From: Thiomicrospira cyclica ALM1
GTDB lineage: Bacteria > Pseudomonadota > Gammaproteobacteria > Thiomicrospirales > Thiomicrospiraceae
Length of the DNA: 64,000 nt
Direction: 5' to 3'
NCBI RefSeq assembly: GCF_000214825.1
Contig: NC_015581.1
Location: forward strand, 62,001 to 126,000
The notes under the pieces were generated by a model, which was not told where the DNA came from, ran no database searches, and was given only the letters and a program-made list of their open reading frames with translations. Below are positions 9,551 through 56,953 of the stretch, in pieces; within the stretch, counting starts at the first letter, position 1; each line of letters begins with the position of its first letter. The position numbers and the translations under genes were made by a program.

Positions 9551-10731
9551 ATCAAAAACAGTATGACGTTATTGTCATAGGTGCGGGTGCGGCCGGTATG
9601 ATGTGCGCCATTGAAGCCGGCTATCGCGGATTAAACGTGTTGTTGCTCGATCATGCGCCTAAGCCTGGTGCCAAAATTCGTATATCCGGTGGTGGCAAGT
9701 GTAATTTCACCAACCGCAACGTAGAGCCAAAGCATTTTATTTGTAGCAATCCCCATTTTGTAAAGTCAGCCTTAGCGCGCTATCAGCCAGACGCGTTTAT
9801 TGAGCGAGTAGAACGCCACGCTATAGCTTATGAAGAACGTGATAAGGGTCAGCTATTTACTCTGGATGGTGCTGGTCAGTTAGTGGCGATGTTTCGAACC
9901 GAGTTAGACTGGGCAGGCGTTGAACTTCAGCTCAATTGCTTTGTTTCCAACGTGCAAAAAGGATCAGATCAATGGCAGTTAATCACGTCGAATGGTTCAT
10001 TGCAGAGTCAAAAACTGGTAGTGGCTACGGGTGGATTATCCTATCCAAAACTTCGCGCCAGCGATTTTGGGATGCAATTAGCTCAGCAATTTGGGTTGGC
10101 GGTGATGCCATCAAGACCAGGCCTGGTTCCGTTGGTGATGCCGGCACGTCAGCAGGCCTGGTGGTCTGAATTAAGTGGTTTAAGCCTACGCGTTATTGCC
10201 TCAACCGCACGTGGCCCTGAATTTGACGGTGCGATGTTGATTACGCACCAGGGTTTAAGTGGGCCCAGTATTTTGCAGGCATCTAATTATTGGTTTGCTG
10301 GTGAAGCCATTCGGCTTAATTTGCTGCCACAAATTAAGGGGATCGCTGGTTGGTTACAAGAGCTAAAGCAACAAGCGCAACCCTTGTCTACGGTGTTAAA
10401 ACAGTATTGGCCGAAACGTTTTGTGCAGGCCTGGCAGGATAAGTTTGGTTTTGACGACGATCTTGCTAACTACAGTCAAATTCGTCTGGACGCTCTGGCA
10501 GAGCAATTAACGGCTTGGTCGCTTTACCCTGAGGATACCGCCGGCTATGCTAAGGCCGAAGTGAGCCTTGGGGGCGTTGCTACCGATGAAGTGTCTTCAA
10601 AAACCATGGAATCACTCAAAGTGCCGGGACTTTATTTTATCGGTGAAGTGTTAGATGTAACCGGTCATTTAGGTGGGTTTAATTTTCAATGGGCTTGGGC
10701 ATCCGCACACGCGTGCGCCCAGAGTCTTTAG
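9547..10731 (+). CDS. YhiN/HI0933-family FAD-dependent oxidoreductase
   Basis: A 394-aa flavoprotein of the HI0933-like family. It has VIVIGAGAAGMMCAIEAG at residues 8-25, the family signature GAKIRISGGGKCNFTNRN near residue 46, a VVATGGLSYPK motif, TLITHQGLSGPSIL-like sequence (seen as LITHQGLSGPSILQAS), and a C-terminal GLYFIGEVLDVTGHLGGFN block followed by WAWASAH. The substrate is unknown for most members. The start codon overlaps the cinA-like stop, so the two are cotranscribed. A longer in-frame start inside the upstream gene is rejected because it adds residues before the FAD motif with no RBS. Three CAGGCCTG motifs occur, encoding PGL and QAW twice. Confidence 0.87.
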   Translation: MNQKQYDVIVIGAGAAGMMCAIEAGYRGLNVLLLDHAPKPGAKIRISGGGKCNFTNRNVEPKHFICSNPHFVKSALARYQPDAFIERVERHAIAYEERDKGQLFTLDGAGQLVAMFRTELDWAGVELQLNCFVSNVQKGSDQWQLITSNGSLQSQKLVVATGGLSYPKLRASDFGMQLAQQFGLAVMPSRPGLVPLVMPARQQAWWSELSGLSLRVIASTARGPEFDGAMLITHQGLSGPSILQASNYWFAGEAIRLNLLPQIKGIAGWLQELKQQAQPLSTVLKQYWPKRFVQAWQDKFGFDDDLANYSQIRLDALAEQLTAWSLYPEDTAGYAKAEVSLGGVATDEVSSKTMESLKVPGLYFIGEVLDVTGHLGGFNFQWAWASAHACAQSL

Positions 10732-31276: not shown

Positions 31277-33286
31277 ATGCCAACTCGTAGAGAACTCGCT
31301 AACGCTATCCGTGCGTTAAGCATGGATGCGGTACAAAAAGCCAAATCAGGACATCCTGGTGCCCCAATGGGGATGGCTGATATTGCCGAGGTTCTGTGGA
31401 ACAGCCACATGAAATACAACCCAAAAAATTCAAACTGGGCCGACCGTGATCGTTTCGTACTATCGAACGGCCATGGCTCTATGTTGATTTATTCTCTACT
31501 GCACTTAACCGGTTTTGAGTTAGGTATCGAAGATATCAAACAATTCCGTCAGCTTCATTCAAAAACAGCCGGTCACCCAGAATACGGTTATGCCGATGGC
31601 ATCGAAACCACCACCGGTCCACTAGGTCAAGGTGTTACTAATGCCGTGGGTATGGCGATTGCAGAACGCACATTAGGCGCGCAGTTCAACCGCCCAGGTT
31701 ACCCAGTTGTAAATCACCACACCTATGTATTCTTGGGCGACGGTTGCTTGATGGAAGGCTTGTCGCATGAATCTTGTGCAATGGCCGGTGCTTTAGGTCT
31801 AGGTAAGTTAGTTGCCTTCTGGGACGACAACAACATCTCTATCGACGGTCACATCGACGAGTGGATGGAACAAGACGTACCGGGTCGTTTTGAATCTTAC
31901 GGCTGGCACGTGATCCGTGGTGTTGATGGTCATAACGCAGAAGCGGTGGATGCCGCTATCCATGAAGCTAAATCGATTCAAGACAAGCCAACGCTCATTT
32001 GTACCAAAACCACCATCGGTTTCGGTTCGCCAAACCTATGTGGCACGCACGATTGTCACGGCGCACCACTAGGTGACCAAGAAATTGCCCTAACGCGTGA
32101 AAACCTAGGCTGGAATCACGAGCCTTTCGTTATCCCGCAAGACATTTATGATGGTTGGGATCACACTGCAAAAGGCGCTGAAGAAGAAGCCGCTTGGAAT
32201 GAAATGTTTGCCGGCTACGCAAAAGAATACCCAGAATTGGCGTCTGAATTCAAACGTCGTATGTCAGGCGAATTACCGGCCAACTTCGAAGTCGAAATGA
32301 ACAAGTTCATTGCCAAAACGCAAGCCGATATGCCAAACATTGCCTCACGTAAAGCGTCACAAAACGCGATTGAAGCCATGGGACCATTATTGCCAGAACT
32401 ATTTGGTGGTTCAGCCGACCTAACCGGTTCTAACCTAACCAACTGGTCAGGCACGGTTAAAGTAAACAAAAACAATGCTAACGGTAACTACATCTCTTGG
32501 GGTGTGCGTGAATTTGGTATGGCCCACATGATGAACGGTATGGTCCTTCATGGTGGCTTCAAGGTTTACGGTGCAACCTTCCTAATGTTCATGGAATTCA
32601 TGCGTAACGCGTTACGTATGTCAGCACTGATGAAAATCGGCACCATCTATGTTTATACTCACGACTCGATTGGTCTGGGTGAAGACGGCCCAACTCATCA
32701 GCCAGTAGAGCAAATTGCGACCATGCGCATGATTCCACGTTTCCAGACCTGGCGTGCTTGTGATGCGGTGGAATCAGCGGTATCTTGGAAAGTGGCTGTG
32801 ATGCGTAACGAAGCGCCAACCGCGTTGGTCTTTTCGCGTCAAAACCTAACCCCACAACCACGTACCGATGCGCAGGTTAAAAACATCGAGAAGGGCGGTT
32901 ATGTCCTAAAAGATTGCAACTGCGAAGGCGCGTGCGAAGCACAATTGATTATTATCGCGACCGGTTCGGAAGTTGATCTAGCGGTGAAAGCGGCCGATCA
33001 GTTGAATGCCGCAGGGACTAAAGTACGCGTGGTATCTATGCCATGTCCAGAAATGTTCGCCGCGCAAGACCAAGCCTATCAAGATTCGGTCTTGATTCCA
33101 GGTGTTAAGCGTTTAGCGGTAGAAGCGGGCGTAACAGCTTACTGGTACAAGTGGGTTGGTTTAGACGGTGATGTGGTTGGTATCGACACCTTCGGTGAAT
33201 CCGCACCCGCTGGCGAGCTATTTAAAGAATTTGGTTTCACGGTAGAAAACGTCGTAGCAAAAGCTCAGGCGCTCATTGCGAAATAA
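31277..33286 (+). CDS. tkt: transketolase
   Basis: Thiamine-diphosphate enzyme of the Calvin and pentose phosphate cycles. The 669-aa product from the ATG preceded by GAGGAC has [24 protein letters not shown] at the start, the ThDP-binding [14 protein letters not shown]...[10 protein letters not shown] region, [20 protein letters not shown], and [20 protein letters not shown]-like sequence. A longer in-frame reading that begins in the intergenic region is rejected. Codon use is strongly biased (many CTA and GGT codons), suggesting high expression. It heads the carbon block tkt-gap-pgk-pyk-fba. Confidence 0.96.
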
Positions 33287-33342
33287 TCGATTTTAAATTT
33301 ATGTTTGTTAACTAAAAAAGGGCTACGGCCCGACTGAAAACT

Positions 33343-33360
33343 CGGCACTTGTGCCGGTTT
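33343..33360 (+). terminator. short hairpin between tkt and gap
   Basis: CGGCAC-TT-GTGCCG with a following GTTTT. It may be a weak terminator or an RNA-processing site that sets separate tkt and gap mRNA levels. Confidence 0.4.
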
Positions 33361-33370
33361 TCCTCAATAG

Positions 33371-34378
<1,008 letters not shown>

Positions 34379-34388
34379 GGAGCCACCT

Positions 34389-35567
34389 ATGTCTTTTATT
34401 CGTATGGCAGATTTGGATCTTAAGGGCAAGCGCGTCTTAATTCGTGCTGACCTTAACGTGCCAGTTAAAAATGGCGTTGTCACCTCAGATGCGCGTATTC
34501 GTGCCTCTATGAAAACCTTTGAAGCGGCCATGAAGGCCGGTGCCAAAGTGATGGTCATGTCGCATCTAGGTCGTCCCGTAGAAGGTGAGTTTTCAGCAGA
34601 AAATTCATTGGCGCCGGTTGCGGCAAACCTATCCGAAAAATTGGGCAAAAACGTTCGTCTGATCAAAGACTACTTAAACGGTGGTTTTGATGTGGCTGAT
34701 GGTGAGCTAGTGCTACTAGAAAACGTCCGTTTCAACGTCGGGGAAGGCAAAAACACCGAAGAGTTATCGAAAAAATACGCCGCATTGTGTGATGTTTATG
34801 TGATGGATGCTTTCGGTACCGCTCACCGTGCGCAGGGTTCTACCCACGGCGCCGGTGTCTATGCCCCCGTTGCTTGTGCCGGCCTGTTATTAACTGAAGA
34901 ACTTGATGCACTAACCAAGGCCTTAAAAGAGCCTGCGCGTCCATTAGTGGCGATTGTCGGCGGTTCTAAGGTTTCAACTAAGTTAACCGTGCTTGAGTCG
35001 CTATCACAAGTGGTTGACCAGTTGGTTGTTGGTGGTGGTATTGCCAACACCTTCATTAAGGCCGCTGGCCACAATGTCGGTAAGTCACTATGTGAAGATG
35101 ATTTGGTGCCAACCGCTAACAAGCTAAACGAGATTATGAACGCACGTAATGCGTCTATTCCCGTGGCTGTTGACGTTGTAACCGGTAAAGAATTCTCTGA
35201 AACCGCGGCGGCGGAAACCAAATCAGTTGCTGATGTAGCGGATGACGATATGATTTTCGATATCGGGCCAAAATCAGCCGCAGAATTAGCTGAAATAATC
35301 AAAAACGCCGGCACCGTGGTATGGAACGGTCCCGTGGGCGTGTTTGAGTTTGATCAGTTTGGAGCAGGAACTAAAACCATCTCTAAAGCGATTGCCGAAT
35401 CCAAAGCCTTCTCAATTGCTGGCGGTGGTGACACCCTAGCCGCGATTGATAAGTATGGCATTGCGGATCAAGTGTCTTACATTTCAACCGGCGGTGGTGC
35501 CTTCCTTGAATTCTTGGAAGGCAAAAAACTACCTGCCGTTGAAATGCTGGAACAACGCGCGAAGTAA
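34389..35567 (+). CDS. pgk: phosphoglycerate kinase
   Basis: Phosphorylates 3-phosphoglycerate in the Calvin direction. The 392-aa protein from the ATG after TAAGGAG matches family length. It has [64 protein letters not shown] and the nucleotide-binding [12 protein letters not shown]-like [14 protein letters not shown]. It begins 10 nt after gap and is certainly cotranscribed. A hairpin formed by two facing AGGCCTG motifs follows its stop codon. Confidence 0.97.
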
Positions 35568-35584
35568 GTAACACAAAGTACTAA

Positions 35585-35612
35585 TCCAGGCCTGCTGTTA
35601 GCAGGCCTGGTT
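35585..35612 (+). terminator. pgk terminator built from two facing AGCAGGCCTGG motifs
   Basis: CCAGGCCTGCT-GTT-AGCAGGCCTGG is a perfect 11-bp stem with a 3-nt loop, 18 nt after the pgk stop, followed by TTCTATC. The stem is very stable but the T-run is poor, so it may end transcription, stabilise the 3' end, or serve the motif's own unknown role. Confidence 0.65.
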
Positions 35613-35807
35613 CTATCAACAAACACTGTTGTAAAACGGTCATCTTATTGTTATCAGTTAAATAAGGATGACTCGAGAAGTGAATTGAACCAAGGCCGGA
35701 CGGGTCTTTCCCCAGCTAGGGGGCAGTTTATTTTACGAGACATCTTGCAACTGCCACACTAAGACGTAGTTTAGCAAACAGTCAAACACATAAGGAAACA
35801 TGCCAAG

Positions 35808-37250
35808 ATGGCTGAAACACTTCGTAGAACAAAAATTGTCGCCACCCTTGGGCCAGCGACCGATCGTCCCGGTGAACTGGAACGTATTATCCTCGCCGGT
35901 GTTGATGTGGTGCGTATTAATATGTCACACGGTAACCCGGAAGATCATTTACTTCGCGCCCAAAATATTCGCGAAACCGCCGCTCGCGTTAATCGCGAAG
36001 TGGCCATTTTGGTTGATTTGCAAGGACCAAAAATCCGGATTGCCAAATTCAAAAATGGCCCGATTGAACTCAATGACGGCGACCAATTTGCCTTAGATAA
36101 CAACGTCGCCAATGATGCCGGTAATCAACAAGAAGTGGGGTTAACCTACAAAAACCTGCCTTATGACGTTAAAGCTGACGATCTGTTGTTACTAGACGAT
36201 GGCCGGATTGTGATGAAGGTCAATCAAGTGGTTGGCGAGCGCGTTGAATGTACCGTCACCGTGGGCGGTACCTTGTCCAATAACAAGGGTATTAACCTGC
36301 ATGGCGGCGGCTTATCCGCCAGCGCATTAACCGAAAAAGACAAGGAAGACATCCTAACCGCCGCTAAAATTGATGCCGACTACCTAGCCTTGTCCTTTCC
36401 CCGTTCTGCGGAAGATGTCGACTACTGCCGCAGCCTGGCCGAACAAGCCGGTCTAAAATGCGGTATTGTGTCTAAAATCGAACGTGCCGAAGCCGTGGCT
36501 GATGACGCAACTCTGGATGGCATTATCCTCGCCTCGGATGTGGTGATGATTGCCCGTGGTGACCTCGGTGTCGAAGTGGGTGATACCCAATTACCGGCCC
36601 TGCAAAAGAAAATTATCAAACGCGCACGTCAATTAAACCGTGTCACCATCACCGCGACCCAGATGATGGAAACCATGATTGACAACGCCATCCCAACCCG
36701 CGCAGAAGTCTTTGACGTCGCCAACGCGGTGATGGACGGTACCGATGCGGTGATGCTATCTGGCGAAACCGCGACCGGTCGCTCGCCGCACCAGGTCGTT
36801 GCGACCATGGCCAAAATTTGTCATGAAGCGGAAAAATCGCGGTCAACCCGCCATTCTACCCACCGCATCGAAGAAACTTTCCAAGCGGTTGACGAAACCA
36901 TTGCGATGGCAACCATGTACGCGGCCAACCACTTTAATGTCAAATGCATTGCTGCCTTAACCGAATCGGGTAACACCGCTTTGTTAATGTCGCGCATCAG
37001 TTCGGGCATGCCGATTTTCGCCCTAACCCCGCATCAGGCCACCCGTCGTAAGGTGTGTATGTATCGCGGTGTTTATCCGTCGATAGTTGATTTTGCCAAC
37101 CTAAGCGACGAGGAAGTTACCCAATCGATCTTAAGTCAGCTTAAGCAGTTTGGCCGGGTTAACAGCGGTGATTTGGCGATTGTAACTCGTGGCCAAACCC
37201 AGGGCGAAATGGGTGGCACCAATCGCATGGAAATTGTTAAAGTACCTTAA
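35808..37250 (+). CDS. pyk: pyruvate kinase
   Basis: Makes pyruvate and ATP from phosphoenolpyruvate. The 480-aa protein has RRTKIVATLGPATDRPGELE at the start, VVRINMSHGNPEDH, VDLQGPKIRIAKF, the substrate site GIVSKIERAEAV, MIARGDLGVEVG, ITATQMMETMIDNAIPTRAEVFDVANAV and a C-terminal regulatory domain. AAGGAAACATGCCAAG precedes the ATG. It sits between pgk and fba, an arrangement typical of cbb-linked central carbon clusters, although a 240-nt structured gap separates it from pgk. Confidence 0.96.
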   Translation: MAETLRRTKIVATLGPATDRPGELERIILAGVDVVRINMSHGNPEDHLLRAQNIRETAARVNREVAILVDLQGPKIRIAKFKNGPIELNDGDQFALDNNVANDAGNQQEVGLTYKNLPYDVKADDLLLLDDGRIVMKVNQVVGERVECTVTVGGTLSNNKGINLHGGGLSASALTEKDKEDILTAAKIDADYLALSFPRSAEDVDYCRSLAEQAGLKCGIVSKIERAEAVADDATLDGIILASDVVMIARGDLGVEVGDTQLPALQKKIIKRARQLNRVTITATQMMETMIDNAIPTRAEVFDVANAVMDGTDAVMLSGETATGRSPHQVVATMAKICHEAEKSRSTRHSTHRIEETFQAVDETIAMATMYAANHFNVKCIAALTESGNTALLMSRISSGMPIFALTPHQATRRKVCMYRGVYPSIVDFANLSDEEVTQSILSQLKQFGRVNSGDLAIVTRGQTQGEMGGTNRMEIVKVP

Positions 37251-37302
37251 TCTTAATGCAAGTTAAGTTAAATTTTTTAAACTAAAAAAAGGAGTATCGC
37301 AT

Positions 37303-38367
37303 ATGGCGATGATTACACTTCGTGAATTGATGGACTACGCAGCAGAACATAGCTTTGGTATGCCAGCGTTTAACGTAAACAACATGGAACAAGTACGCGC
37401 AATCATGCGTGCCGCTGACGCAGTAAACTCACCAGTCATTCTGCAGGGTTCTGCTGGTGCACGTAAATATGCCGGCGAGCCAATGCTTCGTCACATGGTA
37501 GCCGCGGCTGTTGAAATGTACCCACACATTCCAGTGGTTATGCACCAAGACCACGGCTCTGATGTGGGCGTCTGTTTACGCGCGATCCAGTCTGGCTTCA
37601 CCTCGGTGATGATGGACGGTTCTTTAATGTCAGACATGAAAACCCCCGCTTCTTATGAATACAACGCTGGCATTACTGCCGAAGTTGTGAAGATTGCTCA
37701 TGCCGGTGGTGTGTCTGTAGAAGGCGAATTGGGTTGTTTGGGTTCATTAGAAACTGGCATGATGGGTGAAGAAGACGGACACGGTTCTGATGAAAAACTA
37801 GACCATTCAGCACTTTTGACTGATCCAGAAGAAGCGGCTCAGTTTGTACGTGAAACCAACGTCGACTGTTTAGCCGTAGCGGTAGGTACCTCCCACGGTG
37901 CGTACAAGTTCACTTCTAAGCCGTCTGATGACGTTTTGAAAATTGACCAGATCAAAAAAATCCATGCGCGTATCCCAACCACTCATTTGGTTATGCACGG
38001 TTCTTCGTCAGTACCAGAAGAATGGTTAAGCATCATCAACAACTACGGTGGTGACATGGGTCAAACCTATGGTGTACCTGTAGAAGCGATTGTTGAAGGG
38101 ATTAAGTACGGTGTGCGTAAAGTGAACATCGATACCGACCTACGTATGGCCTCAACCGGTGCGATTCGTAAGCACTTGGCGGAAAACACGTCAAACTTCG
38201 ACCCACGTAAATTCTTCAAAGCGGCCGAAGACGCGATGATGGAAATCTGTAAAGCACGTTTTGAAGCCTTTGGTTGTGCCGGCCATGCGTCTAAAATCAA
38301 AGCGTCTGGTTTAGAAGTGATGCAATCTCGTTATGCGTCAGGTTCATTAGACCAGAAGGTCGTTTAA
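37303..38367 (+). CDS. fba: fructose-bisphosphate aldolase, class II
   Basis: Zinc-dependent aldolase that makes fructose 1,6-bisphosphate and, in the Calvin cycle, sedoheptulose 1,7-bisphosphate. The 354-aa protein has [16 protein letters not shown], the metal-binding [43 protein letters not shown] and HGSSSVP. This is the long, Calvin-type class II form. GGAG lies 9 nt before the ATG. It is the last gene of the carbon block; a hairpin array and then a terminator follow. Confidence 0.95.
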
Positions 38368-38402
38368 GCCTGGTTGTAAACCAGGCCATTACCCGGCCTG
38401 GT
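38368..38402 (+). repeat. degenerate three-arm GCCTGGT/ACCAGGC array after fba
   Basis: Arm 1 GCCTGGTT (38368-38375), arm 2 AACCAGGCC (38379-38387) and arm 3 GGCCTGGT (38395-38402). Arm 2 can pair perfectly with either neighbour, so two exclusive hairpins are possible. The arms are partial copies of the CAGGCCTGG motif. Confidence 0.6.
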
Positions 38403-38414
38403 GCTGCCACCAAA

Positions 38415-38439
38415 AACTCGAACTTGTTTCGGGTTTTTT
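38415..38439 (+). terminator. intrinsic terminator of the carbon block
   Basis: ACTCGAA-CTTG-TTTCGGGT, a stem with G-T wobble, is followed by a run of six T residues 48 nt after the fba stop codon. Confidence 0.75.
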
Positions 38440-38532
38440 ATTAGCAACGACTTATAAATCGCACGGCTTTGGGCTATAACTGTTGCAAAAAAACAACAGA
38501 TGCAAATTTTGTTTAAAAATATTCCCCAGACC

Positions 38533-38561
38533 TTGCACTGACCAACAAAAATCCGTATTGT
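38533..38561 (+). promoter_or_regulatory. possible promoter of the porin gene
   Basis: TTGCAC, a 17-nt spacer and TATTGT, about 70 nt before the porin ATG. This is the best sigma70-like match in the 190-nt gap; the match is moderate. Confidence 0.35.
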
Positions 38562-38631
38562 CATCATCAAGCCGAGCCATTAGAGCCCGGTAATTAACGA
38601 AATACACTAACTTTTAAATAAGGAAGACAGC

Positions 38632-39684
38632 ATGAAAAAGAATATTCTTGCAGTAGCCATCGCTGGCGCAATGGCCGTTCCATTTGCAGCAAACGCTTCA
38701 GCTCCAACCCTATACGGTCAAATGAACATTGCAGTTGACTCAGTCACTGACAACGGTTCTGCAGTAGTAAACCGTAACTCACGTTTAGGCGTTAAGGGTT
38801 CTGAAGACGTTGGTAATGGCCTTAAGGTGGTATACCAGTTCGAAACTACCTTGGTTGCAAATGGTGGTGATAACGGTGGTTTTGGTGGTCAGCGTAATAC
38901 CTTCGTAGGTGTTGCGGGTGGTTTTGGTACCGTTATCGCCGGTCGTCATGACACGCCATTACGTATGATTCAGCCTAACGACCGTTTTAACGACTCTGCA
39001 TACCTAGGTAATAACACTGGTCGTTTCGGTGGCTTAAACTTGGGTGGAGATGCTAACTTTTCTGGTGAAGATCGCGTAGACAATGTAGTAGTTTATATTT
39101 CCCCAAACATCAATGGTTTCCAAGTTAGTTTGGCCGGTATTACAGATGCCGAAGAACCTAAAAATCAGGCACTAGGCAATGGCTATTCGGCTTCACTTTC
39201 TTACGGTTCTAAGCGTAATGGTTTGTATGCCGCAATTGGTTTAACGCAAGCCACCAAAGATCTTTATGCTGCAGGCGAAAATATTGATCAGCAAAATACC
39301 CGTGCTGTCGTTCAGTACTCTGACGCTGGTTTAGTGGTTTCGGCTATGTACAATGGTGTTAACACTAAGAAAGTTGAAATTGACGGTGAGCGTTCAGACC
39401 TTGGTAACCATAGTAACATCGTATTAGGTGCGGCCTACACCATGGGTGACTTCACCCCACGTGCTAAAGTTGCATTTGTATCTTATGATGACATCGTTAT
39501 CGAAGATGAAAAGTTTAAAACAAAAGATGCGACTAACTATACAATCGGTTTAGATTACGCACTAGGCAAGAAAACCCGTACTTTTGTAGAGTATGGTGTT
39601 CTTGATAAGAACAGCTTAAGTGGTGTTCGTGTTAATGACAAGTCAACTGACGTGTTCACTGTTGGTATCGCTCACAGCTTCTAA
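38632..39684 (+). CDS. general porin, outer-membrane beta-barrel
   Basis: A 350-aa Gram-negative trimeric-porin-type protein. The signal peptide MKKNILAVAIAGAMAVPFAA is cleaved after NAS. The mature start APTLYGQMNIAVDSVTDNG and NSRLGVKGSEDVGNGLKVVYQFE are hallmarks of the porin_4/OmpC-like family. Strong beta alternation runs to a C-terminal VGIAHSF ending in the aromatic needed for barrel insertion. AAGGAAG precedes the ATG. Codon bias suggests abundant expression. It is monocistronic, closed by a strong terminator. Confidence 0.93.
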   Translation: MKKNILAVAIAGAMAVPFAANASAPTLYGQMNIAVDSVTDNGSAVVNRNSRLGVKGSEDVGNGLKVVYQFETTLVANGGDNGGFGGQRNTFVGVAGGFGTVIAGRHDTPLRMIQPNDRFNDSAYLGNNTGRFGGLNLGGDANFSGEDRVDNVVVYISPNINGFQVSLAGITDAEEPKNQALGNGYSASLSYGSKRNGLYAAIGLTQATKDLYAAGENIDQQNTRAVVQYSDAGLVVSAMYNGVNTKKVEIDGERSDLGNHSNIVLGAAYTMGDFTPRAKVAFVSYDDIVIEDEKFKTKDATNYTIGLDYALGKKTRTFVEYGVLDKNSLSGVRVNDKSTDVFTVGIAHSF

Positions 39685-39743
39685 TTTTGTTCCGAGTTCG
39701 CTCGGACAGCTTGGAACTGTAGCACTAGCCTAACGGCTAAAAA

Positions 39744-39765
39744 CCCCGCCCCGGCGGGGTTTTTT
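39744..39765. terminator. strong terminator after the porin gene
   Basis: CCCCGCC-CC-GGCGGGG stem with T6 on the plus strand and an A-tract on the 5' side, so it could act in both directions between convergent genes. Confidence 0.92.
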
Positions 39766-39792
39766 AATCCCCAAACAAAACCAAAACAACAA

Positions 39793-39810
39793 CGCCCCAA
39801 AATCGGGGCG
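39793..39810 (-). terminator. terminator of the Rpn-family gene
   Basis: CGCCCC-AAAATC-GGGGCG. On the minus strand it is followed by a T-rich tail (TTGTTGTTTTGG), 39 nt beyond the stop codon of the Rpn-family gene. Confidence 0.55.
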
Positions 39811-39848
39811 TGGTAAAAAGCATCAACAATGTAAAGCTGTCTTACAAC

Positions 39849-40799
39849 CTAAGACTTAGACTGCTCGTGTTTATTAAGGTAGTCGATTAGGTCATCTAGC
39901 GGGACTTTTAATTTTGTCGCCGCGTCTTTAACAGAAATACCAAAGTCCTTAACCATCGTTTGCGCAGCTTCAAGTTTGCCTTCGAGTTTGCCTTCTTGCT
40001 GTCCCTTCATCCAGCCTTCTTGCTGTCCCTTCATCCAGCCTTCTTGCATCGCGATGCGTTCTACGGATGTGACATACGCCATTTTTTGTTCCTCCTCAAT
40101 CTGGTCGACTAAGACCTTGAATTCAATATCTAAATTATGCGGTAATGTAATCATCCAGTCAATCAGCCGGAAGAGTTCTAGTAGTTGCTGATGCGTGTAG
40201 CCCCGTTGGTATAACAACCGAATCAGTTGTTTTTTAGCATCCAGCTGATGTTCCGGTGCCTTATTCAGCTTGGCGTGCAGTTGTGCGGCGACAATCAATG
40301 CAAACACATTATCGCTGGCATAGAGTTCTTCAAGGCGATCCTGCCAATCAAGCAACTTTACCATCGGAAACTTAAACGAGATTTCACAACCGCCCAGCTC
40401 AAAGCGAAAATGGTCGGGCCGAAATTTTTTATTAACATCGGTTAACACCGCCAAGCTAATGACATCCTTGTCGTACTTGTCGTTAATCCGATAATTATAG
40501 CGATACATCCGCCTTGCAAAATCCGCCTCTGGCTCACCTTGTACTTCAACATGAATTAACACCCAGCGCGCAATGCCATCGGTACATTCCACCTGCACCA
40601 GCTTGTCGGCATAGGTACGGCCATTTTCCGCATTCGGCAGAATCTGTTGCAGTTCTTTATCGAGGAAAATCACTTCGCGCTGCCAGTTAATTAAGGCATA
40701 AACGTGAGGGAACAACAGCGCCAAAAACTCCGGAAAGCGCAGTTCCAGTGCTTCTTTCCACGGGCTGTCGTGGTCTTGGTTATTATTGGATTCAGTCAT
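39849..40799 (-). CDS. Rpn/YhgA-family PD-(D/E)XK nuclease-like protein
   Basis: A 316-aa protein of the Rpn (recombination-promoting nuclease, YhgA-like transposase_31) kind. The N-terminal part has the expected order: SPWKEALELRFPEFLALLFP, then DKLVQVECTDGIARWVLIHVEVQGEPE, which contains the E/Q-x-E of the nuclease core, then FARRMYRYNYRINDKYD. Near residues 250-275 an 8-residue unit EGWMKGQQ is repeated in tandem, followed by EGKLEGKLE, predicting a charged coiled coil. Relatives are often paralogous and phase-variable in copy number. Function here is unknown. Hairpins lie on its downstream side and AT-rich DNA upstream. Confidence 0.78.
   Translation of the reverse strand: MTESNNNQDHDSPWKEALELRFPEFLALLFPHVYALINWQREVIFLDKELQQILPNAENGRTYADKLVQVECTDGIARWVLIHVEVQGEPEADFARRMYRYNYRINDKYDKDVISLAVLTDVNKKFRPDHFRFELGGCEISFKFPMVKLLDWQDRLEELYASDNVFALIVAAQLHAKLNKAPEHQLDAKKQLIRLLYQRGYTHQQLLELFRLIDWMITLPHNLDIEFKVLVDQIEEEQKMAYVTSVERIAMQEGWMKGQQEGWMKGQQEGKLEGKLEAAQTMVKDFGISVKDAATKLKVPLDDLIDYLNKHEQSKS
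39991..40047 (-). repeat. 24-nt in-frame tandem repeat in the Rpn-family gene
   Basis: Two identical 24-nt units (39991-40014 and 40015-40038) plus 9 nt of a third. Each encodes EGWMKGQQ on the minus strand. Being a multiple of three, copy-number change by slippage would keep the frame and vary the coiled-coil length. Confidence 0.9.
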
Positions 40800-48504: not shown

Positions 48505-48542
48505 TAGCAGGCCTGGTTGAGCATTCTTAACCAGGCCTGCTT
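48505..48542 (+). terminator. trp operon 3' hairpin built from two facing AGCAGGCCTGGTT motifs
   Basis: AGCAGGCCTGGTT and AACCAGGCCTGCT form a perfect 13-bp stem around a 10-nt loop directly after trpC. The T-run is weak (TATTTGGG). Confidence 0.65.
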
Positions 48543-50485: not shown

Positions 50486-51817
50486 CTAGACAAATGGTCG
50501 TTGTTGTTTGAGTGCGGTGTCTTGTTTATCAGCGGCTATTAAAGCTTTCATTACGGCGCTGGCCATCACCTGGGCGATTTGTTGAGCTTCGGTCGCTGTC
50601 ATGGTGTAGGCCGGCATGCTATAAACCAACTTTCCAAACGGGCGCAGCCAAACACCTTCTTCCAGTGCAAATTCTTGTATTAAGCCAGCCAAATCATCGC
50701 GATTTAATTCAATCACGGCTACCCCACCTAAGCAGCGGATACCGACAATATCAGGATGTGCTAGACCTTGCCAGGCCTGACTAAAGATGTGTTGTAGTTG
50801 CGTAACGGCCGTTTGCCAATCATAGTCGTTTAGTAGTTTCACGCTTGCATGTGCAATGCGGCAGGCGAGTGGGTTGGCCATAAATGTTGGGCCATGCATG
50901 AGCAGGCCTGGTGCTGCTTGGCTAATCCCCGCACGAATCCGTTCATTGCATAGTACGGCGGCCAGGCTTATCATGCCCGCACTTAATCCTTTGCCAAGGG
51001 TTAAGATGTCCGGTTCAATATCGGCCCATTCGCAGGCAAACAACTTGCCAGTGCGACCTAGCCCGGTGGCGATTTCATCGGCAATTAATAATACATCGTA
51101 GTGTCGGCATAGTGCGGCGGCTTCTTTAAGGTAGTCGGCAGAATAAAAACGCATCCCGCCCGCGCCCTGCACAATCGGCTCAAAAATAAACGCCGCTATT
51201 TCATGATGATGCTGTTCCAGTATTTGGGCCAGTGACGCTAAGCAGGCCTGGTTGTCAAGTGGCTCGCTAGGATGGTGGCAAATGGGTGGTGCTTTTGCAA
51301 ACAAATTTGGCATCAGGTTGTCTGCGAACAGATGGTGCATGCCATCAACCGGATCGCAAACCGACATGGCACCAAAGGTATCGCCATGATAGGCATGCTG
51401 TAAGGCGATGAAGCGTGACTTTCTGGGCTGGCCAATCGACTTCCAGTACTGTAAAGCCATTTTGAGGGCGACCTCCACCGCAATAGAGCCAGAATCAGCG
51501 AAAAAAGTGTGCGTAAGACTGGGCGGGGAAATATCAATTAAAGCCTGTGCGAGTTCGGTCGCTGGTTGATGGCTAAAGCCACCAAACATAATATGCGGCA
51601 TCTTCTGCAGTTGCTCACTAGCGGCCGCGATAATGGTAGGGTGATTATAGCCATGAATTGCCGACCACCAAGATGACATGGCATCGAGTAATTGACGACC
51701 GTCGTCTAGGGTAATTGTACAACCCTGGGTTGACGATGCCGCTAGTGCTGGTTGACGAGCTGGCAGGCGATTGTAGGGGTGCCAAATATGCTGTTGATCA
51801 AATAGAAAGTTATTCAT
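50486..51817 (-). CDS. bioA: adenosylmethionine-8-amino-7-oxononanoate aminotransferase
   Basis: PLP enzyme of biotin synthesis using SAM as amino donor. The 443-aa protein has IWHPYNRLPARQP (substrate-binding start of BioA), LLDAMSSWWSAIHGYNHP, FADSGSIAVEVALKMALQYW, ALQHAYHGDTFGAMSV, LIADEIATGLGRTGKLFACEWADIEPDILTLGKGLSAGMI with the catalytic Lys, and MHGPTFMANPLACRIAHAS. It is convergent with speE and divergent from the tRNA operon. Two full CAGGCCTGG-type motifs and one with a changed last base are inside. Confidence 0.94.
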   Translation of the reverse strand: MNNFLFDQQHIWHPYNRLPARQPALAASSTQGCTITLDDGRQLLDAMSSWWSAIHGYNHPTIIAAASEQLQKMPHIMFGGFSHQPATELAQALIDISPPSLTHTFFADSGSIAVEVALKMALQYWKSIGQPRKSRFIALQHAYHGDTFGAMSVCDPVDGMHHLFADNLMPNLFAKAPPICHHPSEPLDNQACLASLAQILEQHHHEIAAFIFEPIVQGAGGMRFYSADYLKEAAALCRHYDVLLIADEIATGLGRTGKLFACEWADIEPDILTLGKGLSAGMISLAAVLCNERIRAGISQAAPGLLMHGPTFMANPLACRIAHASVKLLNDYDWQTAVTQLQHIFSQAWQGLAHPDIVGIRCLGGVAVIELNRDDLAGLIQEFALEEGVWLRPFGKLVYSMPAYTMTATEAQQIAQVMASAVMKALIAADKQDTALKQQRPFV

Positions 51818-51891
51818 ATAGGCTAGTTTAGCGATTCTTTTGATGAATGAAATGCTTGTCAGAATTATTTTAGAACTTTAGTAATCTTTTG

Positions 51892-51919
51892 TTGACAGGT
51901 GTGTTTTTCTAGGTAAAAT
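51892..51919 (+). promoter_or_regulatory. promoter of the tRNA-Tyr/Gly/Thr-tuf operon
   Basis: Consensus TTGACA, 16-nt spacer and TAAAAT, about 14 nt before the mature 5' end of tRNA-Tyr. A CGC-containing discriminator (ACGCAACC) follows, as in stringently controlled stable RNA promoters. Confidence 0.8.
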
Positions 51920-51933
51920 ACGCAACCACATTT

Positions 51934-52018
51934 GGAGGGTTTCCCGAGCGGTCAAAGGGGGCAGACTGTAAATCTGCTGGCTCAGCCTTCGTTGGTTCGA
52001 ATCCAGCACCCTCCACCA
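51934..52018 (+). tRNA. tRNA-Tyr (anticodon GTA)
   Basis: Class II tRNA of 85 nt with encoded CCA. The acceptor stem GGAGGGT/ACCCTCC is perfect. The anticodon loop CTGTAAA gives GTA. A long variable arm (GGCTCAGCC) and a TTCGAATC T-loop are present. First gene of the tRNA-tuf operon. Confidence 0.97.
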
Positions 52019-52026
52019 ATATACCT

Positions 52027-52101
52027 GCGGGTGTCGTATAATGGCTATTACCTCGGCCTTCCAAGCCGAAGACGTGGGTTCGATTCCCATCACCCGCTCC
52101 A
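52027..52101 (+). tRNA. tRNA-Gly (anticodon TCC)
   Basis: 75 nt with encoded CCA. The acceptor stem is GCGGGTG/CACCCGC, the anticodon stem-loop CGGCC-TTCCAAG gives TCC, and the T-loop is GGTTCGATTCC. It lies 8 nt after tRNA-Tyr. Confidence 0.97.
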
Positions 52102-52121
52102 TTTCAAGATTTAAGAATTCA

Positions 52122-52197
52122 GCTCTCATAGCTCAGTCGGTAGAGCGCTTCCATGGTAAGGAAGAGGTCACCAGTTCGATTCTGGTTGAGAGCTCCA
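52122..52197 (+). tRNA. tRNA-Thr (anticodon GGT)
   Basis: 76 nt with encoded CCA. The acceptor stem is GCTCTCA/TGAGAGC, and the anticodon stem CTTCC/GGAAG encloses ATGGTAA, giving GGT. Followed by tuf, as in the classic gammaproteobacterial tyrU-glyT-thrT-tufB order. Confidence 0.97.
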
Positions 52198-52248
52198 TTT
52201 TTAGGCTGGGGTGCCCAGTCAATTAGTAACGCTAAAACGGGGTTCGTC

Positions 52249-53439
52249 ATGGCAAAAGCAAAGTTTGAACGTACAAAGCCGCACGTTAACGTAGGAACGA
52301 TTGGTCACGTTGACCATGGTAAAACGACATTAACAGCGGCATTGACCATTGTGCAGGGTAAGAAGTTTGGTGGTGATGTCAAAGGTTACGACCAGATTGA
52401 CAATGCACCGGAAGAAAAAGCACGTGGTATTACCATTTCAACAGCACACGTTGAGTATGAGTCCGAGTCGCGCCACTATGCGCACGTTGACTGCCCAGGG
52501 CATGCTGACTATGTTAAAAACATGATCACGGGTGCGGCGCAGATGGACGGTGCCATTCTTGTATGTTCGGCTGCTGATGGCCCCATGCCACAAACCCGTG
52601 AGCACATTTTGTTATCACGTCAGGTGGGTGTACCTTACATCGTTGTGTTCCTAAACAAGGCGGACATGGTTGATGATGAAGAGTTGCTAGAATTGGTTGA
52701 AATGGAAGTACGTGAGTTGTTGTCAGACTATGACTTCCCAGGTGATGATACGCCGGTCATTAAAGGTTCGGCCTTGAAGGCTATTGAAGGTGACCAGTCT
52801 GAGATTGGTGAGCCAGCAATCGGTCGTTTGATCGAAGCGTTAGATACCTACATTCCAACACCAGAGCGTGATACGGATAAGCCGTTTTTGATGCCAGTAG
52901 AAGACGTATTCTCGATTCAGGGTCGTGGTACGGTTGTAACCGGTCGTATTGAGACAGGTGTTGTTAAAGTAGGCGAAACGGTTGAGATCGTAGGTATCCG
53001 TGATACCGTAAGCACTACTGTAACCGGTGTTGAAATGTTCCGTAAGTTACTAGATCAAGGTGAAGCGGGCGATAACGTGGGTGTACTACTACGTGGTACT
53101 AAGCGTGAAGACGTTGAGCGTGGTCAAGTGTTGAGTCATGTTGGCAAGATTAATCCACATACTCAGTTTGAATCAGAAGTGTATGTATTGTCGAAAGAAG
53201 AAGGTGGTCGTCATACGCCATTCTTCAATGGTTACCGTCCCCAGTTTTACTTCCGTACTACGGACGTAACTGGTGCGTGTGAATTACCATCAGGTGTTGA
53301 AATGGTTATGCCAGGAGATAACATCCAGATGACAATCACCTTGATCAACCCAATTGCGATGGACGAAGGTTTACGCTTCGCGATTCGCGAAGGTGGTCGT
53401 ACGGTTGGTGCGGGTGTTGTTTCTAAGATTTTGAAGTAA
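52249..53439 (+). CDS. tuf: elongation factor Tu
   Basis: Delivers aminoacyl-tRNA to the ribosome. The 396-aa GTPase has [14 protein letters not shown] (G1), [13 protein letters not shown] (G2), [13 protein letters not shown] (G3), [20 protein letters not shown] (G4) and GSALKA (G5), then domains II and III ending [10 protein letters not shown]. The ATG is the one 52 nt after tRNA-Thr; a longer reading through that tRNA is not real. Codon use is highly biased. An intrinsic terminator follows. Confidence 0.98.
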
Positions 53440-53446
53440 TTAAATC

Positions 53447-53475
53447 TTGCAAAAATTAAAAGGGACTGATATAGT
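53447..53475 (+). promoter_or_regulatory. candidate promoter for tRNA-Trp-secE-nusG, overlapping the tuf terminator
   Basis: TTGCAA (53447-53452), 17-nt spacer and TATAGT (53470-53475). The -10 box lies in the loop and descending arm of the tuf terminator hairpin. The predicted start would be just before tRNA-Trp, and no room for a promoter exists between the terminator and the tRNA. Confidence 0.45.
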
Positions 53476-53485
53476 CCCTTTTTTT
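53458..53485 (+). terminator. intrinsic terminator of tuf
   Basis: AAAAGGGACT-GATAT-AGTCCCTTTT, a 10-bp stem running into seven T residues, 19 nt after the tuf stop codon. Confidence 0.9.
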
Positions 53486-53493
53486 AATTTTCT

Positions 53494-53570
53494 AGGGGTA
53501 TAGCTCCAATTGGTAGAGCCGCGGATTCCAAATCCGAAGGTTGGGAGTTCGAATCTCTCTACCCCTGCCA
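53494..53570 (+). tRNA. tRNA-Trp (anticodon CCA)
   Basis: 77 nt with encoded CCA. The acceptor stem is AGGGGTA/TACCCCT, the anticodon loop TTCCAAA gives CCA, and the T-arm contains GTTCGAATC. It precedes secE and nusG as in many gammaproteobacteria. Confidence 0.96.
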
Positions 53571-53627
53571 AATTTTAACGGTCTGTATCCAAGGTGCAGG
53601 TCGTTTTTTTTAATTGTACTGAAACCA

Positions 53628-54011
53628 ATGAATAAAAATCCAGAAGTTCAAGAAGCACGCAGTACAGCGGATACCGCTAAGCTGGTATTGTCTCTATTTA
53701 TATTAGTGGGCGGTATCTTCGCCTATTATTACCTGTCTGATCTCCATGCCGTAATTCGTGTATTGGTGGTAATTGCGGGCGCCGTTGGCGCCGTTGCTGT
53801 GTTGTATACAACGGCTCTAGGTGGGTCGTGGTTTAAATACTTAATTCAGACAAAAAAAGAAATACGTCAGGTCGTATGGCCGACACGTAAAGAGACAGCA
53901 CAAACAACGCTCATTGTGGTTATTGCCGTCATCATCGTGGGTATTTTCCTATGGTTGATTGATATGTTCTTCCTATGGGCGGTGAAGTTATTGACCGGAC
54001 AGGGAGGCTAA
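53628..54011 (+). CDS. secE: preprotein translocase subunit SecE
   Basis: Essential clamp subunit of the SecYEG channel. At 127 aa it is the three-helix form seen in E. coli. Two N-terminal hydrophobic helices ([17 protein letters not shown] and [17 protein letters not shown]) precede the conserved amphipathic [19 protein letters not shown] and the last helix. The in-frame extension upstream overlaps tRNA-Trp and is rejected. nusG follows after 1 nt. Confidence 0.95.
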
Positions 54012-54012
54012 A

Positions 54013-54546
54013 ATGGCAAAACGTTGGTATGTAGTACATGCATTTTCTGGTTATGAAAACAAAGTTAAGGCCGGTATTGTTGAATATGCTGAGCGTGCGG
54101 AGTTAAGTGACCATTTCGGGCGTATCCTAGTGCCCTCGGAAGAAGTTGTTGAAATTCGAGATGGTAAAAAACGCACCAGTGAACGTAAATTTTTTCCTGG
54201 CTATGTGTTGGTTGAAATGGAATTAAGCGAAGAAACCTGGCACCTAGTTAAGAGTGTACCCCAAGTGCTTGGTTTTATTGGTGGTAAGAGTGATAAGCCT
54301 GCGCCAATAACCCAAAAAGAAGTGGATAGAATTTTACAGCGTGTTGAAGAAAATGTAGACAAGCCACGGCCTAAAATCATCTACGAACCAGGTGAAATGG
54401 TTCGAGTTACAGATGGTCCGTTTACCGACTTTGAAGCCGTTGTTGAAGGCGTTGACTACGATAAAAATAAATTACAAGTATCAGTATTGATTTTTGGGCG
54501 CTCAACGCCGGTTGAGCTTGAGTTCTCACAGGTCGCAAAAAGCTGA
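54013..54546 (+). CDS. nusG: transcription termination/antitermination factor NusG
   Basis: Elongation factor linking RNA polymerase to Rho or ribosomes. The 177-aa protein has [17 protein letters not shown] (NGN domain), [29 protein letters not shown], and a KOW domain [40 protein letters not shown]. It directly follows secE. Confidence 0.97.
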
Positions 54547-54597
54547 TTTTTTTAACGGGGAGCCGCAAGGCGCTATTACCCAACTAGGAGTGTAACA

Positions 54598-55026
54598 ATG
54601 GCTAAGAAAATTGCAGCCTATATTAAATTACAGATTCCTGCAGGTGCAGCGAATCCAAGTCCGCCCGTTGGTCCAGCTTTGGGTCAGCGTGGTGTTAACA
54701 TCATGGAGTTCTGTAAAGCGTTTAACGCCCAGACAGCCAATGTTGAAAAAGGACTTCCATTGCCTGTTGTTATTACTGTTTACAGTGATAAGAGCTTCAC
54801 ATTCATTACTAAAACCCCTCCGGCCGCTGTGTTGTTGAAAAAAGCAGCTGGCATCAAGAGTGGTAGTGCCGTACCTAACCTAAACAAGGTGGGTAAGGTT
54901 ACCCGTGCTCAGTTAGAAGAAATTGCTACTACAAAAATGCCGGATTTGAATGCTAACGATTTAGACACAGCAGTTAAAATCATTGAAGGTTCCGCGCGTA
55001 GCATGGGCCTAACGGTTGAGGGGTAA
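54598..55026 (+). CDS. rplK: ribosomal protein uL11
   Basis: Stalk-base protein of the 50S subunit, 142 aa. It has the N-terminal [37 protein letters not shown] and [18 protein letters not shown], followed by the rRNA-binding C-terminal domain ending RSMGLTVEG. It starts 51 nt after nusG with AGGAG and is followed by rplA at 6 nt. Confidence 0.98.
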
Positions 55027-55032
55027 TAAGAC

Positions 55033-55722
55033 ATGGCAAAATTAACAAAAAAACAAAAAGTAATGGTTGAGCGTGTCAATAAAGACTCTTCTTATGAGGT
55101 TATGGCTGCGCTTGATCTTGTTAAAGAGTTGGCAACGGCAAAATTCGATGAAACTGTGGATGTTGCTGTTAAGTTAGGCGTTGACCCACGTAAATCTGAT
55201 CAGGTTGTTCGCGGTGCAACAGTATTGCCGAATGGTCTTGGTAAGACTATTCGTGTTGCTGTATTTACCGGTGAAGCGAACCAGGCGGCTGCTAAGGCAG
55301 CAGGTGCTGATTTCGTGGGTATGGATGAGTTGGCTGCTGACATTAAAAAAGGCATGATGGACTTTGACGTAGTTATTGCAAGCCCAGATGCCATGCGTGT
55401 TGTAGGTGCGTTAGGTACTGTTTTAGGTCCACGTGGCTTAATGCCTAACCCTAAGACAGGTACTGTAACGCCTGATGTTGTGACTGCGATCAATAACGCA
55501 AAAGCAGGTCAAGTTCGTTACCGTGTAGACAAGGCCGGTATTGTTCATGCTCCAATCGGTAAGGCGTCTTTTGATAGCCAAAAATTGAAAGAAAACTTGG
55601 CAGCCCTTATTGAAGACTTGAATAAAGCTAAGCCTTCCGCTGCTAAGGGTGTATATATGAAGAAGGTTTCCTTATCCAGTACCATGGGTCCTGCGGTAGC
55701 TGTGGAACAGTCTTCAATCTAA
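55033..55722 (+). CDS. rplA: ribosomal protein uL1
   Basis: L1 stalk protein and, in relatives, translational repressor of the rplK-rplA mRNA. The 229-aa protein has [54 protein letters not shown] and [20 protein letters not shown]. It is translationally close to rplK. Autoregulation by L1 is known for E. coli and assumed here. Confidence 0.98.
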
Positions 55723-55885
55723 ATTCCTGTTGTTCTTTTGAATAATGGGTTGCGGTTTGGGTCTCCTAAATGTGAGTGCCCATCGCAGACCGTAGGTGGT
55801 TGTGAATAGAACAACCTTAATTGCATTTGCGGCCTACGTAGATGAGTAGTTTAGTTACATCGTAACTAAACTTATGGAGGTTAGA
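55723..55885 (+). ncRNA. L10(L12) ribosomal leader ahead of rplJ
   Basis: A 163-nt untranslated leader. A long-range closing stem GTTGTTCT (55729-55736) / AGAACAAC (55808-55815) encloses a GC-containing arm, as in L10-responsive leaders. A perfect 11-bp hairpin AGTTTAGTTAC-ATC-GTAACTAAACT (55848-55872) ends just before the GGAGG of rplJ. Binding by the L10-L7/L12 complex is known for this leader class; the fold here is read by eye. Confidence 0.6.
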
Positions 55886-56380
55886 ATGGCACTTAAACTC
55901 GAAGATAAAAAGCTTGTCTTAGAAGAAGTTTCTGCTGTATTGGCAGATACCGTTTCTATAGTCGTAGCTGAATATCGTGGGTTGACAGTGGAGCAGATGA
56001 CTAAGCTTCGTTCTCAGGCTCGCGACAATGGTGTTGTTGTTCGCGTAGTTAAAAATACCCTAGCTAAACGTGCATTTGCAGGAACACCTTATGAAGACAT
56101 GAGCGCTTCATTGGTAGGACCTGTTGTTTTGGTGTTCTCTCAGAAAGAACTATCAGGCGCAGCGCGTGTTGTTAAGGCATTCAAAAAAGAAAACGATGCT
56201 ATGGTTGTTAAAGCAGTATCAATTGGTTCAGGCACCCTTGACGCTAATCAATTAGATATGGTTGCATCACTACCAACTTACGACGAAGCAATTGCAAAAC
56301 TAATGTATGTAATGAAGGCACCGGTCGAGAAATTGGCTCGTACGCTGGCAGCTTACAAAGAGTCACGCGAAGCGGCTTAA
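55886..56380 (+). CDS. rplJ: ribosomal protein uL10
   Basis: Stalk scaffold that binds L7/L12 dimers, 164 aa. It has EDKKLVLEEVSAVLADTVSIVVAEYRGLTVEQMTKLR, RVVKNTLAKRAF, SLVGPVVLVFS and a C-terminal helix for L7/L12. I chose the ATG after ATGGAGG; the earlier in-frame ATG overlaps that site. Confidence 0.97.
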   Translation: MALKLEDKKLVLEEVSAVLADTVSIVVAEYRGLTVEQMTKLRSQARDNGVVVRVVKNTLAKRAFAGTPYEDMSASLVGPVVLVFSQKELSGAARVVKAFKKENDAMVVKAVSIGSGTLDANQLDMVASLPTYDEAIAKLMYVMKAPVEKLARTLAAYKESREAA

Positions 56381-56419
56381 TTTTTTGCATTAGTTATTTA
56401 TTACATTTAGGAGATAAAC

Positions 56420-56788
56420 ATGTCTGTATCACAAAACGATATCTTAGAAGCCGTTGCCAATATGACGGTAGTCGAAGTTGTTGAATTAATTTCAGCAATG
56501 GAAGAAAAATTTGGTGTATCTGCTGCAGCGATGGCTGTTGCTGGTCCAGCTGCTGCCGCTGAAGCTGCTGAAGAGCAATCAGAGTTCAACGTAGTTTTAA
56601 CCAGTGCTGGTTCTAACAAAGTTGGTGCGATCAAAGCTGTTCGCGCAATCACTGGTCTTGGCTTAAAAGAAGCTAAAGACGCGGTTGAAGGTGTTCCAAC
56701 TGTGCTTAAAGAAGGCGTCTCTAAAGAAGAAGCTGATGAAATTAAAAAGCAAGTTGAAGAGGCTGGCGGCCAGGTTGAGATCAAGTAA
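56420..56788 (+). CDS. rplL: ribosomal protein bL12 (L7/L12)
   Basis: Multicopy stalk protein that recruits translation factors, 122 aa. N-terminal dimer domain ([20 protein letters not shown]), an Ala-rich hinge ([17 protein letters not shown]), and the factor-binding domain [42 protein letters not shown] precedes the ATG. Confidence 0.98.
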
Positions 56789-56823
56789 TAGCTTGATTTT
56801 AACTGCTTAGCTGCAGTGAAAAT

Positions 56824-56849
56824 GGCTGACATTTCGGTGTCGGCCTTTT
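56824..56849 (+). terminator. rplL-rpoB attenuator
   Basis: GGCTGACA-TTTCGG-TGTCGGCC with one G-T pair, followed by TTTTGTGTTTT. Its position between rplL and rpoB matches the partial terminator known to lower rpoBC transcription in E. coli. Confidence 0.75.
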
Positions 56850-56953
56850 GTGTTTTATCAGTGTGTAAAAGCGTCATATTTTAGTTTGATACGACCCTTT
56901 TATACATTTACTTGAAGTCCCACAATTTAATAACCCGATTGTCGAGGTATTCC

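Follow-up and report, generated by a model that had tools for sequence, protein, structure and literature searches.

Sequence-specific uptake of DNA has been described for the Pasteurellaceae and the Neisseriaceae; as far as the available part of the source extends, the known uptake sequences are "not palindromes", and the uptake drive model expects a gradual enrichment of near-miss words (PMC1939737). In Neisseria, terminators are portrayed, in the accessible portion of one report, as long stems with few T residues in the tail (PMC1852404). The locus considered here lies 3' of pgk in Thiomicrospira cyclica ALM1, in a stretch of 64,000 nucleotides (the window, G000:C1:62001-126000), where both arms of a hairpin are copies of a palindrome that is repeated throughout the genome. 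We take Thioalkalimicrobium cyclicum ALM1 to be now placed in Thiomicrospira. No report of this motif was found in a partial survey of the open-licence literature.

The structure is probably a terminator-like hairpin at the 3' end of pgk, with a stem that consists, in this lineage, of two copies of the iterated palindrome ASCAGGCCTGST (Table 1). The segment reads CCAGGCCTGC TGTTA GCAGGCCTGG, two 10-mers with 5 nt between them, and its 11 complementary pairs form a perfect stem closed by the loop GTT that starts 18 nt 3' of the stop codon. Folding of the RNA of positions 35568-35630 yielded -22 kcal/mol against -11.7 for shuffled sequences (sd 2.64, z -3.9), and 1 of 200 shuffles was equally good. 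Sequence, pairing and fold thus bear out the original prediction, which had described two copies, 5 nt apart, giving a perfect 11-bp stem with a 3-nt loop after pgk. It had also described the T-run as poor, and the tail indeed holds 2 T in 9 nt when counted by the pairing script, which begins two bases later than position 35611 (CTATCAACA). The hairpin has the GC-rich stem directly past the stop codon that is looked for in Rho-independent terminators but lacks their T-run, and a terminator scan of positions 32000-40000 did not list it. We infer that transcription ends at this hairpin; since the T-run is weak here, termination may be inefficient or Rho-dependent.

Table 1. Features of the window that are discussed in the text (window positions)
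Feature	Position	Strand	Basis or remark
pgk ORF (phosphoglycerate kinase), gene upstream of the hairpin	34353..35567	+	ORF list; likely true start 34389
Hairpin, 11-bp stem and 3-nt loop, terminator-like, 3' of pgk	35586..35610	+	Sequence, pairing, fold; counterparts in 30 genomes examined
Palindrome CAGGCCTG, copy 1, left arm of the pgk hairpin	35587..35594	.	Genome position G000:C1:97587
Palindrome CAGGCCTG, copy 2, right arm of the pgk hairpin	35602..35609	.	Genome position G000:C1:97602
Weak T-tract after the pgk stem, TTCTATCAA	35611..35619	+	Sequence
Conserved long hairpin RNA of the pyk leader, 3' of the pgk hairpin and distinct from it	35665..35749	+	Alignment, covariance model
Close pair 2 of the window, 16-nt gap	48508..48539	.	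7 nt past stop (own gene calls), tandem genes
Close pair 3 of the window, 27-nt gap	10118..10160	.	Within predicted gene

The 10-mer on which the original prediction was built is one flank version of a 12-bp palindrome, ASCAGGCCTGST, with a self-complementary core octamer, CAGGCCTG. In aligned copies, C or G (0.96) and then A (0.79) follow the core on each side, and the composition further out is near background. In 216 copies, the three combinations of the S (C or G) flanks number 72, 88 and 41, close to independence, so that the "opposite orientation" ascribed to the two copies at pgk reflects the choice of flank letters and not a property of the motif. The copies do pair, as had been proposed; the motif being palindromic, however, any two copies can do so, and "facing" means little.

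The genome, a single contig of 1,932,455 bp, holds 840 copies of CAGGCCTG (about 435 per Mb), as against 3 for the reversed-word control, and 37 of them are in the window. In 464 kb sampled, made up of the window and 20 stretches of 20 kb, CAGGCCTG was the top octamer, with 432 occurrences against 15.4 expected, both strands being counted. Among 216 sampled copies, 195 are within predicted genes (92, 96 and 7 in the three codon phases), the gene calls behind these gene and gap counts, and behind the pair context and codon checks below, coming from our own ORF scorer and not from curated annotation. Density is higher in convergent gaps (1.76 per kb) than in genes (0.45 per kb). A putative intracellular protein acting as a dimer, such as a nucleoid-associated, recombination or segregation factor, might bind this palindrome, its use in terminators then being secondary; the perfect two-fold symmetry, the random sequence beyond 12 bp and the occurrence of sites at conserved places between species would suit such a protein. 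Nevertheless, the copies number 3-13 per 20 kb without domain structure in the sampled stretches and, at 840, are to our knowledge far more numerous than known site-specific chromosome-organising motifs, and we regard this explanation as unlikely.

Some 34 kb are free of CAGGCCTG, from positions 51243-64000 of the window on to genome position 147209. The ORFs in the window part of this stretch are, judging by the names we give their protein sequences, presumably tuf, rplA and rpoB; an island beside tRNA genes had been considered and was dropped, since these ORFs identify the stretch as a ribosomal and RNA-polymerase cluster.

When the window was aligned to the relative G007 (80.0% identity), 27 of 35 copies were conserved, as against 118 of 1007 composition-matched octamers, and the alignment to G002 gave 26 of 37 against 106 of 936; three other relatives conserved 3 of 4, 3 of 7 and 3 of 6 copies, aligned sites too few to say much. 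Where the encoded amino acids agree, the octamer is intact in 23 of 26 cases in G007 and in 22 of 26 in G002, far above the control octamers (0.19-0.32), which indicates that the DNA word itself is maintained. In the 464 kb sampled, the 12 classes of one-mismatch words were not enriched (observed over expected 0.4-1.57), with the exception of CAGACCTG at 3.56, in which the change is at a central position. This sole enriched form, CAGACCTG/CAGGTCTG, was found 34 times against 9.5 expected in the sampled stretches, and 15 of the 34 sites retain the AS..ST flanks.

These properties invite comparison with HIP1, and the motif could likewise be driven by a methyltransferase together with biased mismatch repair, in which case the pairs at gene ends would be a side effect of density. 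The enriched near-miss is a central C-to-T change, as deamination would produce, and the motif, a palindrome extended symmetrically, approaches with its roughly 435 copies per Mb the 500-2500 per Mb reported for HIPs in the accessible part of the source (PMC4390886). The other one-mismatch words, in contrast, are unenriched, unlike HIP1 one-offs.

The motif is unevenly spread: of the 58 family genomes searched (T. cyclica being one), 30 have copy numbers of 409-1133 and the other 28 of 0-74, and 35 genomes outside the family hold 0-222 copies of CAGGCCTG. One family member, G029, has 12 copies of CAGGCCTG and 1025 of a different palindrome, ACCGGCCGGT, which is found 0-15 times in each of the remaining 57 genomes of the family and no more than 28 times in any of the 35 outside it; in G031, G020 and G011 the preferred form is ACCAGGCCTGGT. 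Alternate HIPs similarly replace one another between genomes, a further point in favor of a methyltransferase-driven palindrome. The enzymes themselves do not follow the motif. In a search covering PF00145 and PF01555, none of 9 Thiomicrospira genomes contained a C5 methyltransferase of family PF00145, which 3 of the 19 motif-rich genomes searched in the family possessed; PF01555 (N4/N6) exceeded the cut-off in 8 of the 19, and 10 of the 19 had neither. Drive by C5 or N4/N6 (PF01555) methyltransferases was rejected because the distribution of these families fails to match that of the motif, and we hold a HIP1-type origin through methylation and mismatch repair to be improbable.

Dialects were also sought in motif-poor genomes: G016 yielded a tandem repeat region only, without a dispersed word, and G032 and G014 yielded longer asymmetric repeats, mostly intergenic. 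The repeat of G032, AAAATCTRCCAGGTTGGGG, is dispersed and asymmetric, its core is intergenic in 12 of 18 copies, and some copies form close inverted pairs; that of G014, GAAAAAAGTCGGGGACCCCC, is dispersed as well, with 12 copies of its core in the 100 kb sampled.

The relatives of pgk belong to Thiomicrospira, Hydrogenovibrio and Thiomicrorhabdus. They were found in 54 of 55 genomes (query, translated positions 34389-35564), and of these 54 loci 30 were fetched and all 30 examined for their 3' region. In 30 of 30 genomes, the best hairpin 3' of pgk comprises 9-17 pairs and starts 0-52 nt after the stop codon, as returned by a finder that always reports a best hairpin, the shuffled control applying to the single T. 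cyclica fold. In 12 of the 18 motif-rich genomes the pgk stem holds at least one copy of the motif, and in 5 it holds two, both arms being the motif in T. cyclica (G000), G007, G008, G002 and G031; the other 6 have a stem without the motif. Among the 12 motif-poor genomes, the stem holds the motif in one, and the stems of G030, G032 and G034 are of unrelated sequence. In G004 and G006, one arm reads CAGGTCTG and forms G-U pairs with CAGGCCTG in the other arm. In the sisters G007, G008, G002 and G004, the 9-nt tail after the stem contains 5-7 T.

The suggestion that the stem is perhaps retained for the sake of the motif runs counter to the findings at pgk, where motif-free relatives keep a hairpin and decayed arms still pair by G-U. 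As the hairpin is present family-wide, motif-free genomes included, the motif was built into it. We read the pgk locus, on the strength of these sequence comparisons, as one where selection would act on the RNA stem while the DNA word moves in and out. Alternatively, the two copies at pgk could be chance neighbors of an abundant word, with no role in transcription, as the weak T-run at pgk might suggest. Against mere coincidence stand the 30 examined genomes, which have a hairpin past pgk, five of them with both arms formed by the motif and others with decayed arms preserved by G-U pairing; the genome-wide pairs bear on it as well.

Close pairs were defined as octamers with 0-30 nt between them, and the next distance class as 31-61 nt. 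The genome of T. cyclica has 9 close pairs, against 11.3 expected from the copy number and 6 in the next class, a random frequency that favors chance neighborhood. Their placement, by contrast, is not random: 6 of the 9 are between genes, past stop codons, where sampled densities predict 1.7 (P 0.008), and 3 are inside genes, where 11.4 are predicted (P 0.004). Taking the pgk and genome-wide data together, we consider it very unlikely that the pgk pair arose by chance alone and is without a function in transcription.

Of the 19 motif-rich genomes tested, 6 were above the uniform expectation (P 0.015 to 1e-11), several of them two- to fourfold, and 13, that of T. cyclica included, were without clear excess. 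Close pairs numbered 37 against 9.5 expected in G019 (next distance class, 10), 35 against 10.3 in G023 (9), 20 against 5.3 in G033 (1), 22 against 10.7 in G001 (9), 21 against 12.0 in G003 (11) and 24 against 14.6 in G031 (6), and the ACCGGCCGGT dialect of G029 forms 44 against 11.5. The pairs examined were intergenic in 20 of 20 cases in G023 (of 35 pairs), 12 of 13 in G031 (of 24), 4 of 7 in G020 (of 8) and, for ACCGGCCGGT in G029, 15 of 15 (of 44); many of the relatives' examined pairs are between convergent genes and have T-rich tails. In G023, the two copies are repeatedly separated by 11-nt spacers that have a CATTTT-like core, as if the pairs were part of a longer composite element.

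The original prediction had seen in facing pairs at gene ends the use of uptake sequences as terminators, and had tied this to pairs being more frequent than the copy number implies. In raw counts that excess is missing from T. cyclica and is found in some relatives only; the position at gene ends holds, both for 6 of the 9 pairs here and for the examined pairs of the relatives. The data support the view of the motif as a word iterated across the genome, with close pairs that, by their location, behave like terminator stems.

Downstream of the pgk hairpin, the pyk leader contains a second structure, with the invariant parts AGGRTGNCTCG ... CGAGNCATCTT, that is held by 26 of 29 extracted leaders, a thirtieth having been left out as its pyk start was not found. 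In 25 distinct leader sequences, the 19-pair structure had 97.0% paired cells, as against 38-50% when slid, and three pairs were changed on both sides. A covariance model of this hairpin matched 49 of the 58 genomes of the family and none of 35 outside it, the second match in each genome being the opposite strand of the same place; it had no match in 71 further pgk loci, and an Rfam search of the hairpin gave no match. It may represent an undescribed leader RNA of pyk. Within positions 35639-35672 of the window (+ strand), GTCATCTTAT can pair with ATAAGGATGAC, which would compete with the pyk-leader hairpin; the arrangement appears similar by eye in G007 and G002, and this pairing is possibly a switch.

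How the palindrome came to form the pgk stem can be pictured as the meeting of two processes. On the RNA side, the pgk transcript would need a stem-loop past its stop codon, which most relatives have, whatever its sequence. On the DNA side, some reader of the palindrome would keep about 400-500 copies per Mb, both in genes and in the gaps that separate genes. Were a second copy to land beside a first, the two would provide a ready-made GC-rich stem, which could then be kept or tuned as a terminator.

Why the word is maintained is a separate question. By analogy, its distribution is best read as resembling that of an uptake signal, and biased uptake of self DNA during natural transformation, of the kind known from Neisseria and Haemophilus, with a receptor that tolerates a symmetric site, is the most likely single reason, which we favor tentatively. 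Next comes an iterated palindrome independent of uptake, of the type of cyanobacterial HIP1, for which we see a lesser though real chance; most of the probability left beside uptake falls to an iterated palindrome or a binding site without uptake. A search of 36 family genomes found ComEC (PF03772) in 34, that of T. cyclica among them: in 19 of 19 motif-rich and in 15 of 17 motif-poor ones. Its presence in the motif-poor genomes means that it does not discriminate. It is conceivable, and we propose it with some reserve, that the Thiomicrospiraceae possess a self-DNA recognition signal for transformation of their own, two-fold symmetric, with the dialects ASCAGGCCTGST, ACCAGGCCTGGT and ACCGGCCGGT, recognized by a receptor that is symmetric or dimeric, its pairs being re-used as terminators, unlike any described signal. 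If so, this would be a third independent uptake lineage, with a palindromic signal and a switch of dialect between close relatives, and would allow tests, in free-living sulfur oxidisers, of how receptor and signal evolve. If the motif is no uptake signal, it would represent a highly iterated palindrome without the methyltransferase required by the current HIP model. On either reading, pgk would illustrate the stepwise building of an abundant DNA word into an existing RNA hairpin.

Among known repeats, REP elements are similar in being repeated and able to form intergenic hairpins; the present motif differs from them in that 195 of 216 sampled copies lie within predicted genes and in that its conserved unit is 12 bp. 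HIP1 and the alternate HIPs of cyanobacteria share with it a palindromic octamer at hundreds of copies per Mb, a symmetric extension and replacement in some genomes, going by the available part of the source (PMC4390886). Its 435 copies per Mb are a HIP-like density, but the cognate PF00145 methyltransferase is absent from all 9 genus members and PF01555 is patchy; moreover, enriched one-offs, mostly at outer positions, characterize HIPs and are not seen here, and the motif's probable use in terminators is a further difference from HIP1. With uptake sequences (DUS and USS), typically at about 1000 copies and far above expectation, the motif shares its copy number, 840 against 3 for the control. 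It departs from the uptake drive model, which according to the consulted portion of the source expects gradual enrichment of near-misses, in that these are unenriched except CAGACCTG, and from the known uptake sequences, described there as non-palindromic, in that CAGGCCTG and its 12-bp extension are palindromic (PMC1939737). Compared by eye, the USS of Pasteurellaceae is an asymmetric 9-mer of different letters; it is likewise gammaproteobacterial, present in about 1000 copies and, in the part of the report at hand, co-opted as paired copies by terminators (PMC1852404). The Neisserial DUS is asymmetric where the motif is palindromic and belongs to a different family, and uptake of the motif is putative only; nonetheless, to the extent that the accessible parts of the sources describe it, the DUS resembles the motif in its spacing of about one copy per 1-2 kb, its genic and intergenic location, its close pairs serving as terminator stems, as those of the motif probably do, and its dialects (PMC2397512, PMC3630211).
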